Assembly (NCBI RefSeq): GCF_021556475.1
Contig: NZ_JAKGBZ010000009.1
Location: 1 to 64,000 of the forward strand
Direction of reading: 5' to 3'
DNA: 64,000 nucleotides
Source of the DNA: Acidiphilium iwatense
Lineage (GTDB): Bacteria; Pseudomonadota; Alphaproteobacteria; Acetobacterales; Acetobacteraceae
In this document: positions 46,068-51,216 of the stretch, one piece after another
Layout: each line of letters opens with the position of its first letter
How positions within the stretch are numbered: position 1 is the stretch's first letter
Notes under the pieces: model-generated
The model's input: only the letters and a program-made list of their open reading frames with translations
Database searches by the model: none
What the model was told of the DNA's origin: nothing
Program-made: the position numbers and the translations under genes

Positions 46068-48260
46068 CTACCGCCGTGCCGTCACCCGCCGGCGCTCCCT
46101 GACCACCGGATAGAGCGGCGCGCTCGCGAGGCGGATGGTCAGGCTCCGCGCGCCCTTGAGCAGCGCGGCCGGAATCACCGCGTCGCCGCGTGTCCACCGA
46201 TGCCCGTCCTCGGCCCGATGCCACCCCGCCGTCAGGCGCGCATCGCCGAGATCGATCCGCCCGGCTTCGGTTTCCAGCGCCGCCACATCGAGCCCGAGCA
46301 CCCGCCGGTCCTCCGACCCGGCATCCAGATGCGCCGGCACCAAAGTCCGGCTCGTCAGCCGCACATCGCCGGATGTCGGCACAGCCACCCGCCAGCACGC
46401 CGCACCCACCCGAGTCACCGCGACCGTCCGCGCCCCGATCGTCGCGACGATGCCGGGATCGCCGGTCGTCTCGACCGCTCCCGCCCGCGCGACAATCTTC
46501 CGGCGCAGCGCCGTCACCGCCGCGCCCGCCTCGGCGAACGGCGCATAGCCCTCCCGCTCGCGCAGGGTCTGCGCGAAATCCGGGTGCAGCACCCGCGCCT
46601 GCCCGGCCTCGCCAGAGAAAAACCCCCGGTTGCCGGTCTCCAGATAGGTCTCCGCCGGCAATCCCTCGGCGAACACCACGTCGTGCCGGTCCAATTCCAG
46701 ATGGAAATAATCGACATGCCGCCGCTCGACCTGCGCGATCGTCGTGCCATTCACCAGCGCCTTCGCCGGCACCAGCAACCCGTCCAGATACAGCGCATGG
46801 TCCGGCGAGACATAAAGGTCGCGCGCCGGCACCCCGTCGGCGATCGCCCCGGCCTCGATGCGGACCGGCCAGATCAGTTCCGGGCGCGGATGCCGCCGCG
46901 CATCCAGCTTCCGCCGCCCGATCCATTGGATCGGCGCGCACCGCCCGCCATGGGCGATCACCCGATCCCCCACCGCCAAATCCTCGACCGCGACCGGGCC
47001 CGTTTCGGTCAGAATCCGCGTGCCGGCCGCGAAACACACGGCCTGCGCCGTCACCAGCCCGGCCGAAACGACGAATGTATCGCCCGCGAAACTCTGCGCG
47101 GGGTCGAGCTGCACCTGATAGCTCACCGAGCCGTCGGTGACGCTCAGCACGTTGTTCGTCCCCAGCGTCGCCGTCCCCGCGCCCGCCCCGGCCGCCCCGG
47201 CGAGCAGGATCGCGTCGTCCTCGCCCACGCCGGCCGCATCGAACCCGCTGATCACGTTGCTCAGCGTGGTCACACCCTGCAGCACCAGGGTCGCGCCCGC
47301 GCCGGTGAAATCGATCGGCCCGGTGATCGTCGCCCCGGCCTCGATCACCATGCCGCCATTCACCCCCAGGGTCGTCCCGGTCGCGGTCCCGCCCGACGAG
47401 ACATACTCGATCCCGCCATTCTCCGCCGTGGTGGCGGAGGCCACGCCGCCATGGAACACGGTCTGGCTGCCACCATCGAGCAGCGTGGTGATCGCCGTGC
47501 CGCCCGCCGAATTGACCGACCCGCCGACATACCCGACAAGCTGCGTTCCCCCGGCATTGATCGTGTTGCCGGTCGCGGTGCCGCCGCTCAGCACGAGCTG
47601 AACGCCACCGGAATTGACCACATTGCCGCTGGCCGAACCACCGCTCGTTATGGACTGCGCGCCGCCATTGTTGACGGTGGTGCCGCTCGCCGCGCCGCCG
47701 CTCAGCACGTTCTCATGCCCGCTGACATTCAGCGTCACGCCCACCGCCCTGCCGCCGCCGGTGAGTTCGAGCTGGCCGGTATCCACGATGCTCGCCGAGG
47801 CGACGCCGCCGGACGTTACCGTCAGCGCGCCGCCCGAGGTCACATTGTTGCTGGTCACGACCCCGCCACTGGAAACCAGCAACGTGCCGCCGTCGATATT
47901 GGTGACCGACATCGCCCCGCCGGTATAAGTAGTCAGACCGATCTTGTAGCCGTCGGCGATCTCGCCACCCGAGGCGATCGTCGTGCCGGTCATCTGCACG
48001 CCACTGGCCACGATGCCGATACCTGAAACCGTCAGCCCGCTCACCGTGCCTTCGAACAGTCCGATCCCGCCGGAGAGCACCACCCCGCCATCGGCGACGC
48101 CGCCGGGCAGCACGCCCTCGATACCGCCGCTGCTCACCGTGATCGCCGACACCGTCCCGCCCGACGCCACCTCCAGCTTGCCGCCGCTGGTCACCGTCGC
48201 GCCGCTGACCGTCTGGCCCGAGGAAACAACCGTTGTGCCGCTGATCGTGGTTCCACTCAT
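46068..48260 (-). CDS. AIDA-type repeat passenger fused to a Hint domain
   Basis: 730 residues in three parts. Residues about 1-330 are tandem AIDA-like strand-loop-strand repeats (SGTTVVSSGQTVSGATVTSG, SGGVVTSNNVTSGG, NNGGAQSITSGGSASGNVVN), the kind that heptosyltransferases glycosylate. Residues about 407-560 are a Hint (hedgehog/intein) domain: VCFAAGTRILTETGPVAVED with the likely nucleophile Cys, DLYVSPDHALYLDG with the B-block His. Residues 560-730 are a tail without known domain and without a beta-barrel. No signal peptide is seen. The gene overlaps the heptosyltransferase stop by ATGA. Hint domains cleave or splice the chain autocatalytically, so the passenger may be released or anchored by self-processing. 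Confidence 0.9.
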   Translation of the reverse strand: MSGTTISGTTVVSSGQTVSGATVTSGGKLEVASGGTVSAITVSSGGIEGVLPGGVADGGVVLSGGIGLFEGTVSGLTVSGIGIVASGVQMTGTTIASGGEIADGYKIGLTTYTGGAMSVTNIDGGTLLVSSGGVVTSNNVTSGGALTVTSGGVASASIVDTGQLELTGGGRAVGVTLNVSGHENVLSGGAASGTTVNNGGAQSITSGGSASGNVVNSGGVQLVLSGGTATGNTINAGGTQLVGYVGGSVNSAGGTAITTLLDGGSQTVFHGGVASATTAENGGIEYVSSGGTATGTTLGVNGGMVIEAGATITGPIDFTGAGATLVLQGVTTLSNVISGFDAAGVGEDDAILLAGAAGAGAGTATLGTNNVLSVTDGSVSYQVQLDPAQSFAGDTFVVSAGLVTAQAVCFAAGTRILTETGPVAVEDLAVGDRVIAHGGRCAPIQWIGRRKLDARRHPRPELIWPVRIEAGAIADGVPARDLYVSPDHALYLDGLLVPAKALVNGTTIAQVERRHVDYFHLELDRHDVVFAEGLPAETYLETGNRGFFSGEAGQARVLHPDFAQTLREREGYAPFAEAGAAVTALRRKIVARAGAVETTGDPGIVATIGARTVAVTRVGAACWRVAVPTSGDVRLTSRTLVPAHLDAGSEDRRVLGLDVAALETEAGRIDLGDARLTAGWHRAEDGHRWTRGDAVIPAALLKGARSLTIRLASAPLYPVVRERRRVTARR

Positions 48261-49516
48261 CGCGTCGATCCCTTTTTCTCTTGCCTGGATGTTGTCGTGT
48301 CATGGCGTGCGAAGCCCGGAATCCGGGCAATCGCGCCGGTCACCTGTCCGGCGGTGATCAGCCTGGTGCATTCGAACTGCCGCTCGGTGCCGGCCTGGCG
48401 CGGGCACCACAGGAAATCCTTGTGGTCGAACCGCGCGCGCGGGTCGTTCCAGCAGGAATTGCAGGCGTGGTAGTTGATCACCCGGTGCGGGGTAAAAAAT
48501 TCGTTGGTCGGATGGGTGAATCCCGAAATCATCACCACCGGCGTCCCGACCGCCCAGGCCAGCCAGGCGAGCCCGCTGGACAGGCCGACGAAAAACGCCG
48601 CGTGGCGCAGCAGATGCGCCCGTTCGAGCAGCGGAACGTCGCCGGTCCTGTCCTCCGCGCCATGCGGAATATGGGTCCAGACCAGCCCCGACCCGCCCAC
48701 CCGCTTCTGGTCGATGCAGACCACCCGGTATCCCGCATCTTGCAGGAAGCGCACCACCGCGTGCCAGCCCTCGGGATTGCTCCAGATCTTGGCCTGCGCC
48801 GAGCTTTGCACCGCGATGCACACGTAAGGCTCGGCGATCGGCCGCTTTTCATCGGTCGCCGCGATGCGCGGCGGCGCTTCGGTGGGATCGACACCGAGAA
48901 TATAGCCGGCGGTGCGGTGCAGCCCGACCAGCCGGAAATCGCAAGGCTGCCAGTGCCGGTTCTCGTCGTCGAAAAACAGCCCGAGATGATAGGTCGCATA
49001 GAACCGCCCGGTCTCGACCGCGTCCTGGGTGACGAAGGCGATATGCGGATAGGCATCGGCGAACAGCGGAATCAGATTCGCCGCCATCGAACAGGTCAGC
49101 CGGCAGCCCCGCTCGGCCTGAAACCGCGCGGCATAGGGCAGCCAGCCGATCACGTCGCCCAGGGTGCCGACCGGAAACGCGATATGCACCTCCCGGTCCC
49201 GGCAATCGAGGTCATGGGCGAAAACCTGCGCGCCGTTCTGCGCCACCTCGATGCGGAACGGCACGAAATACCGCTTCGAGCTGACCACGAAACCCTGCTC
49301 CAGCCTTGTCTCGAACAGGATATTGCCGGTCGCGGTGTCGCGCAGCACGACATGCCATTCGCCCTCGCCGCGCGGCAGCGCGATCCGGCAGCCCTCGTTG
49401 AAATCGAATCGCAGCCCGAACGGCCCTTGCTGCGTCGGCACCGGCGCGGGCGCCGGATAGGCGCGCGGCGGCGCCTGGATCGTCGGTGTTCGGGGGAGAG
49501 CGGGCAGGCTATCCAT
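48257..49516 (-). CDS. Autotransporter heptosyltransferase (BAHT type)
   Basis: A 419-residue glycosyltransferase of the bacterial autotransporter heptosyltransferase group (AAH, TibC), which adds heptose to Ser/Thr of AIDA-type repeats in the cytoplasm. VHIAFPVGTLGDVIGWLPYA starts the GT-B core; the C-terminal part has AAFFVGLSSGLAWLAWAVGT and NEFFTPHRVINYHACNSCWN. HACNSCWN, WCPRQ and FECTRL supply four Cys, like the ferric-iron site of TibC. The N-terminal ~45 residues are Pro-rich. It is the first gene of the pair with the repeat-Hint gene, which is its obvious substrate. No Shine-Dalgarno site is seen near ATG 49516. Confidence 0.88.
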   Translation of the reverse strand: MDSLPALPRTPTIQAPPRAYPAPAPVPTQQGPFGLRFDFNEGCRIALPRGEGEWHVVLRDTATGNILFETRLEQGFVVSSKRYFVPFRIEVAQNGAQVFAHDLDCRDREVHIAFPVGTLGDVIGWLPYAARFQAERGCRLTCSMAANLIPLFADAYPHIAFVTQDAVETGRFYATYHLGLFFDDENRHWQPCDFRLVGLHRTAGYILGVDPTEAPPRIAATDEKRPIAEPYVCIAVQSSAQAKIWSNPEGWHAVVRFLQDAGYRVVCIDQKRVGGSGLVWTHIPHGAEDRTGDVPLLERAHLLRHAAFFVGLSSGLAWLAWAVGTPVVMISGFTHPTNEFFTPHRVINYHACNSCWNDPRARFDHKDFLWCPRQAGTERQFECTRLITAGQVTGAIARIPGFARHDTTTSRQEKKGSTR

Positions 49517-49701: not shown

Positions 49702-51216
49702 ATGAACGGCCCGGCACCGGACCAGTTGCGCGATCCCCGCTCCCAGACAGCTCCGCGCCGCGCGGTGGTCGATCTGGGGTCCAATTCGGTCCGCCTCGTG
49801 GTGTTCGAGGGCCAGTCCCGCAATCCGGTGCAGATTTTCAACGAAAAAGCGGTCCTCCGCCTCGCGCGCGGCCTGATCCGCACCGGCAGGCTGGACGAGG
49901 CGGCGATGGACGAGGCCGCCACGGTGATCCGCCGCTACGGCGCGATCGCCCGCGCCATGGGCGCGCATCCGTTCGAGGCACTGGCCACCTCGGCGGTGCG
50001 CGACGCCGAAAACGGCCCGGATTTCGTCGCCCGGCTCGAAGCCGCGACACCCGGCCTCAAGGTCGTGGTGCTGTCCGGCGAGCAGGAGGCGCATCTCTCG
50101 GCCGAGGGCGTGCTCTGCGGCATTCCTGGCGCCGACGGCATTCTCGCCGATCTCGGCGGCGGCTCGCTCGAAGCCGTGCGCCTCTCGGCGGGCACAATCG
50201 GCGATGCCGCGACCATGCCGATCGGCGTGATCCGCCTCGCCGAACGCGCGGCCGGAGACCCCATCCGCGCGAAAGCCATCGTCGCCGGGGAATTGGCCGA
50301 GCTGCCCTTTCTGTCCGACGGCGCGGGCGGCGACCTCTATGTCTCCGGCGGCGCGTTCCGCGCGCTCGCGCGCATCCATATCGCCCAGACCGGCTATCCG
50401 CTCGCCATGGTCCACCACTACACGATCGGGCGCGAGGAGGCGCGCGACCTCTCGGCGGTGATCGGCGAGGCCAGCCGGAAACTGATCGAGCGGATGCCGG
50501 GGGCCGCGCGCAAGCGCATCGAGGATCTGCCCTTCGCCGCGATCATTCTCCGCCGCCTGCTGCGCGCGACCGGCGCCGCCCGCGTGGTGTTCAGCGCCAA
50601 CGGGCTGCGCGAGGGCTGGTTCCTGCGCCAGCTCCCGCCCGCGATGCGCGAGCAGGACCCGCTGGTCGCCGCCGGGCGCGACCTCACCATCGGCCTGCTG
50701 CGCGACCCCAATTTGCCGGACGCGCTGATCGGCTGGACCGCGCCGCTGTTTCCCGCCGAAACCCACGCCCAGCACCGGCTGCGCGAGGCCGCCTGCTGGT
50801 TTTCCGATATCGGCAATCACGAACACCCGGAATACCGCGCCGAACAGGCGTTTTTGCGCGTCCTGCGCCAGACCGGAGTCGGGCTCGACCACCATGCCCG
50901 CGCCTTTCTCGCCCTCACCCTGGCGCTGCGCTACGAAGCCCCGATCGAAAGCCCGTTTCTCGCCCCTGCGCGCGCTTTGCTCGACATGGCCGCCGCCCGC
51001 CGCGCCGAAACCCTCGGCGTCGCACTGCGCCTCGCCTATACGCTCTCCGCCGGCACGCCCGCTCTGCTCGCCGCCACCAGCCTGATCCCGCGGGATGGCC
51101 GCCTCGTCCTCACCCTCGATGCGGCGAGCGGCGTGTTCGCCGGCGACCCGATCGAGCGCCGCCTTGCCCGCCTCGCCTCGATGGTCGGGCTCGATCCCGA
51201 AACCCGCCTGATCTGA
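49702..51216 (+). CDS. ppx: Exopolyphosphatase / GppA-family phosphatase
   Basis: A 504-residue ASKHA-fold phosphatase that degrades polyphosphate or pppGpp. VVDLGSNSVRLVVFEGQSR gives phosphate loop 1, ATSAVRDAENGPDFVARLEA and VLSGEQEAHLSAEGVL follow, ILADLGGGSLEAVRLS gives loop 2. The C-terminal half is the HD-like domain (HHARAFLALTLALRYEA). Start ATG 49702 is upstream of the conserved Asp by 24 residues. Ppx and GppA cannot be told apart by eye. Confidence 0.92.
   Translation: MNGPAPDQLRDPRSQTAPRRAVVDLGSNSVRLVVFEGQSRNPVQIFNEKAVLRLARGLIRTGRLDEAAMDEAATVIRRYGAIARAMGAHPFEALATSAVRDAENGPDFVARLEAATPGLKVVVLSGEQEAHLSAEGVLCGIPGADGILADLGGGSLEAVRLSAGTIGDAATMPIGVIRLAERAAGDPIRAKAIVAGELAELPFLSDGAGGDLYVSGGAFRALARIHIAQTGYPLAMVHHYTIGREEARDLSAVIGEASRKLIERMPGAARKRIEDLPFAAIILRRLLRATGAARVVFSANGLREGWFLRQLPPAMREQDPLVAAGRDLTIGLLRDPNLPDALIGWTAPLFPAETHAQHRLREAACWFSDIGNHEHPEYRAEQAFLRVLRQTGVGLDHHARAFLALTLALRYEAPIESPFLAPARALLDMAAARRAETLGVALRLAYTLSAGTPALLAATSLIPRDGRLVLTLDAASGVFAGDPIERRLARLASMVGLDPETRLI

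Follow-up and report, generated by a model that had tools for sequence, protein, structure and literature searches.

A BAHT heptosyltransferase gene paired with a gene for a barrel-less AIDA-repeat protein carrying a Hint domain in Acidiphilium iwatense

We analysed a stretch of 64,000 nucleotides (the window) from contig C146 (NZ_JAKGBZ010000009.1) of the 4.16-Mb draft genome of Acidiphilium iwatense, in which two minus-strand genes form one apparent unit. The gene at 48257-49516 encodes a 419-residue enzyme assigned to the BAHT family of O-heptosyltransferases, and the gene that follows it at 46068-48260 encodes a 730-residue partner in which AIDA-type repeats are succeeded by a Hint domain and a further C-terminal tail. 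A preliminary description of this DNA had reported this layout and an ATGA overlap between the genes, and both are borne out: the two open reading frames (ORFs) occupy these positions, and the junction reads ...ACG CGA TGA / ATG AGT GGA. The layout of the pair, its domains and its recurrence in other genomes are confirmed. Features of the unit are listed below, with residue numbers referring to the protein encoded at that position.

48257-49516, minus strand: BAHT O-heptosyltransferase by profile, 419 residues (TIGR04414 hepto_Aah_TibC, 625 bits; cut-off 200)
49235-49426, minus strand: TibC N-terminal domain, residues 31-94 (PF21129 TibC_1st)
48506-48865, minus strand: Glyco_transf_9 catalytic part, residues 218-337 (PF01075)
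48368-48463, minus strand: iron-finger cysteines C352, C355, C371 and C383 (invariant in 14 of 14 rows of alignment A1)
48269-48274, minus strand: AAGGGA, a ribosome-binding-like stretch upstream of the start of the second gene (read from the sequence)
48257-48260, minus strand: ATGA stop/start overlap
46068-48260, minus strand: AIDA-repeat/Hint protein, 730 residues (Pfam and NCBIfam domain matches)
47289-48245, minus strand: AIDA/strand-loop-strand repeats, about residues 6-324 (PF16168, TIGR04415, NF033176; outer limits approximate)
47040-47375, minus strand: cap-like domain before the Hint domain, about residues 296-407 (profile-profile match, hhalign)
47034-47036, minus strand: Cys409, with cleavage predicted before it (Cys in all 52 Hint sequences)
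46635-47039, minus strand: Hint_2 domain, residues 408-542 (PF13403, E = 6e-50)
46485-46634, minus strand: helical linker after the Hint domain, residues 543-592 (AlphaFold2 helices, model residues 166-176 and 186-199)
46071-46484, minus strand: tail domain, beta-rich with an RWT.GdA motif, residues 593-730 (AlphaFold2, predicted local distance difference test (pLDDT) score of 85 when modelled alone)

The enzyme and its repeat protein partner

Judged by its residues, the enzyme is a TibC/AAH-type heptosyltransferase in which the catalytic and iron-finger positions are conserved. Its closest solved structure by sequence is TibC (PDB 4RAP, E = 1.6e-138), and the functional TibC residues used for comparison are those given in a 2014 eLife paper (PMC4358343). 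Residues K243, R299 and W318 align with TibC K230, R286 and W305, whereas D121, the equivalent of TibC D110, sits N-terminal of the Glyco_transf_9 part; TibC Thr226 is replaced by Ser239. The iron-finger cysteines align with TibC C339, C342, C358 and C370. It is for these four conserved positions that the earlier characterization of a transferase with four cysteines holds, as the enzyme has more than four cysteines overall. A Pfam scan of the enzyme reveals TibC_1st and Glyco_transf_9 only. The source genome carries this single BAHT gene, along with an HldE-type ADP-heptose gene that scores barely above its cut-off (347.7 versus 345 bits).

Profile searches with the 730-residue protein recover both elements that had been read from its sequence, namely AIDA repeats (PF16168 in six stretches and the strand-loop-strand model TIGR04415 in eight) and Hint_2, and they reveal no barrel. 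Specifically, the protein yields no match to the barrel model PF03797 (Pfam, E ≤ 1), although the same model does match comparison proteins in loci L060, L099 and L108; the source genome encodes one PF03797 protein, on another contig. The protein begins MSGTTISGTTVVSSG and is repeat-like from its start. An alternative upstream start was considered and rejected: the frame is open for just 13 codons above the ATG (743 versus 730 residues), and there is therefore no room for an upstream signal peptide. The preliminary impression that both a barrel and a signal peptide are absent is upheld by Pfam for the barrel. A signal peptide is not visible by eye, and a hydropathy scan (≥2.0) gives weak guidance, since it flags 4/16 barrel, 1/34 Hint, 0/18 'neither' and 0/26 cut partners (classes defined below) and so separates these classes poorly.

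Both flanking genes lie on the plus strand. One is a Ppx/GppA gene (49702-51216), and the other, convergent with the Hint gene, encodes a FadL-type outer-membrane barrel protein (PF03349; 44631-46010). This barrel protein was considered as a partner of the Hint protein and was dropped because there is no evidence for it.

The Hint domain and the recurrence of the pair

An AlphaFold2 model of residues 395-730 (pLDDT 78) matches bacterial intein-like (BIL) domains and mini-inteins, with a best E-value of 6e-6. Besides the cysteine equivalent to Cys409, the residues His488, His520 and Glu537 are present in all 52 distinct Hint sequences, and His526 in 50 of these. The domain resembles the Hint domains of BIL and Hedgehog Hog proteins in its fold (by model), its N-terminal Cys and the block-B-like His488. 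Unlike these, it is located behind a repeat stalk, is encoded adjacent to a BAHT gene and is followed by a different C-terminal domain. It also lacks the C-terminal His-Asn that is found in inteins and in A-type BIL domains (types as presented in PMC7765530), and none of the Hint alignments contain this pair. From a Hint domain of this composition, N-terminal cleavage rather than splicing would be expected, and it seems likely that the domain cleaves.

The source genome yields 12 Hint_2 matches, one of which is a fragment. Ten further complete Hint proteins each consist of an N-terminal part, then the Hint domain, then a tail; no signal peptide is visible by eye in any of them, and an AIDA-like match was obtained for none of the ten. 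Hint_2 is widespread in the family: of 397 Acetobacteraceae genomes sampled, 298 have it. At one locus (L242), four Hint-protein genes stand in succession on the same strand.

To define the neighbourhoods of BAHT genes, two sets of loci were surveyed. The named set holds the best 80 of 528 confirmed loci, on which all named-locus counts rest, and the family set holds 78 regions of Acetobacteraceae genomes chosen among the BAHT matches listed. Together they provide 166 distinct BAHTs (84 named, 82 family), for each of which a partner was sought within 1.5 kb on either strand, with local Hint thresholds built on eight seeds from the source genome. The initial partner classes were Hint (34), barrel (16), a repeat protein lacking both Hint and barrel ('neither', 18), a repeat protein cut by the end of the sequence (26) and none recognised (72). 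Two barrels detected by Pfam (L099 and L108) had escaped the local barrel profile, and the Pfam check was therefore run on all 18 'neither' partners (last 400 residues or whole). These two cases were moved and no barrel appeared in the other 16, giving 18 barrel and 16 'neither' partners. All 18 barrel-type cases are Burkholderiaceae loci. Among the 82 family BAHTs, the partner is of the Hint class in 26, neither in three, cut in six and none in 47; no barrel was seen, with the ends of the six cut partners lying out of view. A Hint partner accompanies eight of the 84 named BAHTs. A lack of co-occurrence elsewhere had been named in advance as grounds for abandoning the preliminary description, and the 34 Hint partners among 166 BAHTs show no such lack.

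These 34 BAHTs correspond to 32 Hint ORFs, two of which are each shared by two BAHTs. Of the 32 BAHT-adjacent Hint proteins, 20 carry AIDA-like repeats, versus three of 46 others (Fisher p = 1e-7, not corrected for kinship), and two of those three exceptions (L103, L164) also sit in BAHT loci. Hint is present in 116 of the 118 BAHT genomes of the family sample. As a separate observation, neighbouring BAHT pairs with no recognised substrate within 1.5 kb occur at nine loci (L154, L158, L165, L172, L181, L186, L188, L197 and L223).

A BAHT tree was built by a quick method from 67 of 167 rows, with 'cut', 'neither' and 'none' rows left out unless linked to a type I secretion system (T1SS), and with the long row L221 unsure. 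On this tree, partner class requires five changes, when the minimum possible is two. The window BAHT groups with two genus mates (support 100); its grouping with two Burkholderiaceae rows of the barrel type is less secure (88).

Barrel-less relatives and a candidate export route

The preliminary description had proposed that the Hint domain replaces the barrel. In that form the proposal lacks support, as there are BAHT partners with neither barrel nor Hint domain beside T1SS genes, and a profile of their C-termini matches the domain that precedes Hint in the window protein. Homologues of HlyB and HlyD lie within the fetched 10 kb of BAHT in 14 of the 80 named loci (Bradyrhizobium 8, Reyranella 2, Enhydrobacter 2, Xanthobacteraceae 2). 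The HlyB-HlyD pairs of the two loci tested exceed the cut-offs of TIGR01846 and TIGR01843, with HlyB scoring above 1000 bits to TIGR01846. Locus L129, initially taken as a T1SS locus on the basis of its ABC gene, was dropped once the locus was read and no HlyD was found beside it. The partners at the 14 loci are complete in six cases, cut off with their ends unseen in six, and not recognised in two; neither PF03797 nor Hint is found in any of the six complete ones. Such proteins from Bradyrhizobium, Reyranella and Enhydrobacter share with the window protein the transferase, the AIDA-like repeats and the cap-like C-terminus profile, and they differ from it in having no Hint domain, no tail, and linked exporter genes.

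The cap profile was built from the C-terminal 115 residues of seven BAHT partners without a barrel, five of which are T1SS-linked (L061 and L105 are not). The pre-Hint region of the window protein matches this profile by hhalign at 98.6%, with E = 9e-16 for one comparison, and for the corresponding part of 35 further Hint ORFs the value is 95.3%. The similarity is evident from profile-profile comparison only, as the sequence profile of the barrel-less C-termini gives no match to the window protein at 1e-3. All four shuffles were negative as controls, as were the barrel, the tail and the Hint domain, and five of six windows of internal repeats scored low. The sixth reached 95.9%, which counts against the assignment, and the match is therefore good, yet not beyond doubt. 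A second difficulty is an ORF with a tail-like domain (L105:16925-17233) directly behind the barrel-less, Hint-less partner that L105 contributes to the profile; for this reason L105 may not be a true Hint-less partner.

Given this match, a cut before Cys409 would leave an end at about the same place as in the barrel-less relatives. Together with the Hint-less, T1SS-linked partners, this match suggests that the likely substitute for the barrel is a different exporter, and that the Hint domain is an added processing module.

Two further loci touch on this subject. In a Methylococcaceae metagenome-assembled genome, a BAHT-linked repeat protein carries RTX repeats (L132:7545-9425). In a genus mate, a Hint gene near a BAHT-Hint pair has HlyD and an ABC gene of the C39-peptidase type behind it (L147:3495-8432). 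An ORF that looks transposase-like by eye lies between that Hint gene and the BAHT pair, and this suggestive locus was excluded from the counts.

The only HlyD above cut-off in the source genome is paired with an HlyB-like ABC protein on contig C113, in a cluster (L239:5121-15793) that reads HlyB, HlyD, Sel1, a fusion of glycosyltransferase families 2 and 4 (GT2/GT4), a ChW protein and GT4. Of 20 HlyB regions of the family (L262-L281), 18 show the whole order HlyB-HlyD-Sel1-glycosyltransferase-ChW protein-GT4, and the other two (L263 and L270) run into the end of the contig before it is complete; domain names in the other genomes are taken from the source-genome cluster. This cluster looks like a dedicated glycoprotein export locus. 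Among the 397 family genomes, 231 have both Hint and a source-type HlyB (E < 1e-200), 67 have Hint only, 16 HlyB only and 83 neither (odds ratio 18, not corrected for kinship). At 1e-120, HlyB is found in 115 of the 118 BAHT genomes. In genus g1, all ten Hint genomes have HlyB, and the three without Hint lack both HlyB and HlyD.

These data are consistent with the following model. The BAHT, made first and coupled to its partner through the ATGA overlap, would place heptose from ADP-heptose on Ser/Thr residues of the AIDA repeats in the cytoplasm. The product, with no visible Sec signal or barrel, would then exit via a type I-like exporter encoded elsewhere, for which the HlyB-HlyD pair at C113 of the source genome (G000) is the candidate; the Hint-less relatives beside T1SS genes probably take the same type I route. 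Finally, the Hint domain would form a thioester at Cys409 and cut there, so that the repeat stalk and cap part from the Hint domain and tail. The gene layout, the domains, the conserved residues, the recurrence and the likeness of the pre-Hint domain to the ends of barrel-less, mostly T1SS-linked BAHT partners are observed; we infer the heptosylation of the 730-residue protein, its export route, and its cleavage and the timing of this event. Taken individually, heptosylation of the repeat protein by the BAHT is likely and type I export of the 730-residue protein is probable. Taken as a whole, we give roughly even chances to the reading that the unit makes an O-heptosylated, barrel-less repeat adhesin with type I-like export and a Hint cut before Cys409.

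Several observations weigh against this model. No exporter gene is present among the ORFs around the window pair, no HlyD match lies near the ten source-genome Hint regions, and the window protein has no RTX match (Pfam). The source-genome HlyB reaches only 508 bits against the TIGR01846 cut-off of 725. A source-type HlyB is near just one of 18 Hint regions of other genomes (L257; 20 were fetched, and L255, with no Hint, and L259, a 100-base filler, were dropped), and conversely only two of the 20 HlyB regions (L273, L277) contain a Hint or AIDA-like ORF. A strong HlyB orthologue is missing from 67 of the 298 Hint genomes, 40 of which have none even at 1e-120. HlyD, in turn, is present in eight of 14 Hint-negative genomes, and it is absent at E ≤ 1e-40 from four (G713, G716, G742 and G388) in a group of 16 Hint-positive genomes chosen because their HlyB is weak or missing. 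G713 and G716 are BAHT-positive, and G713 keeps a match (38% identity) to the glycosyltransferase of the HlyB cluster. On the side of the substrate, 72 of the 166 BAHTs have no recognised neighbour, no AIDA-like match was obtained for 12 of the 32 Hint proteins next to a BAHT, and the co-occurrence of these genes may reflect shared ancestry. Furthermore, no experiment on the cleavage or glycosylation of a PF13403 protein was found in the literature searched.

Export might instead bypass type I secretion (by a two-partner or lipoprotein-like route or by lysis), in which case the HlyB cluster would serve other substrates. The four Hint-positive genomes without HlyD would fit such a route, as would the fact that most Hint genes examined have no adjacent exporter. 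However, the cap resembles the ends of T1SS-linked relatives, and both the Hint/HlyB co-occurrence table and the clean division within genus g1 are harder to accommodate. We regard a non-type-I route as unlikely.

The tail domain and its links to glycosyltransferases

Among 78 distinct Hint ORFs, 54 end in a tail of the window type, seven in a second type, 16 in a short tail and one in another; L215, counted as short, looks frameshifted, with its tail resuming in the next ORF. The tail fold evades assignment to a nameable family (best Foldseek E of 0.26; best Z of 5.0), and the domain has neither a PDB sequence match nor an NCBIfam match above cut-off. Ten of the 11 copies of the window tail domain in the source genome are in Hint proteins, and the eleventh ends a GT2-like protein, whose score to Pfam Glycos_transf_2 (21.8 bits) narrowly misses the cut-off of 23.3. 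On contig C122 of the source genome (L138:1681-4800), a Hint gene with the second tail type is directly followed by a GT4 gene that starts with the same domain, which is also carried by a GT4 gene in L072. In two relatives (L164:1326-4808 and L195:7158-19901), Hint, two copies of the second tail domain and GT4 are joined in one open frame, preceded by PF16168 repeats in L164 and by an AIDA-like match in L195. A short repeat protein with the second tail domain and no Hint match (L072:13574-14368) adjoins a GT4 gene and a BAHT.

The tail occupies a place like that of the sterol-recognition region that follows the Hint domain in Hog proteins (layout as given in PMC7765530), and therefore a Hedgehog-like attachment deserves consideration. 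In such a process, the tail would hold a glycan or lipid whose hydroxyl, in place of water, resolves the Cys409 thioester, and the heptosylated, exported adhesin would become anchored covalently by its C-terminus to a surface glycan or glycolipid. In its favour are the tail on the GT2-like protein, the frames that unite Hint with GT4, and the second tail on successive Hint and GT4 genes (L138) and in L072; the lack of a splicing-type His-Asn end is also compatible. Opposed to this are the 16 of 78 Hint ORFs with a short tail only (of which at least L215 looks frameshifted), the absence of a clear PDB fold for the tail and of a known nucleophile, and the prospect that the shared domain merely docks a glycosyltransferase. 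Anchoring of this kind by a bacterium is improbable.

In another reading, Hint and tail form a module that docks glycosyltransferases or acts on them in cis, and all that cleavage does is to release the adhesin from the machinery of glycosylation ahead of export. Glycosyltransferase fusions and a glycosyltransferase neighbour have the second tail domain in common, and glycosyltransferases are encoded in the HlyB-HlyD cluster. The enzyme of the AIDA class, however, is the BAHT, in which Pfam detects only the two domains noted above. We consider this reading doubtful, to about the same degree as Hedgehog-like anchoring. Even less can be said for a decaying or non-functional fusion, in which a repeat protein has been joined to a mobile Hint domain with no working processing or export: the lack of experimental data on PF13403 in the literature searched would allow it, but the invariant catalytic residues in 52 Hint sequences, the open frames and the recurrence across the family make it very improbable.

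Relation to known systems and significance

With the AAH/AIDA-I and TibC/TibA systems, the window pair shares the transferase family, the conserved D121, K243, R299 and W318 and four cysteines, and the AIDA repeats. Unlike AIDA-I and TibA, the window protein is without a PF03797 barrel, has no signal peptide that could be seen, and ends in Hint and tail. FrpC-type self-processing RTX proteins embody a similar idea of a type I protein that cuts itself, although FrpC uses an Asp-Pro module rather than Hint, and no BAHT is known to be involved. As far as our searches show, glycosylation by BAHTs has so far been described for autotransporters. PF13403 itself is named in two papers of the literature searched, in one of them as a table entry. 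No description of a Hint-bearing BAHT partner was found by title or abstract start, in a search that left subscription journals mostly outside, which agrees with the preliminary statement that no described system of this layout is known. The pair is real, recurrent and undescribed in the literature searched; it represents a known kind of glyco-adhesin, varied in its delivery and processing.

The BAHT-repeat pair comes with at least three C-terminal solutions: a barrel, a T1SS-linked cap, and a cap followed by Hint and tail. Given these solutions and the five class changes on the BAHT tree, the notion of a modular glyco-adhesin kit becomes testable. The arrangement also suggests what the Hint_2 family, which has received little study, may do, and it raises the question of whether bacteria might anchor proteins to glycans through Hint chemistry.

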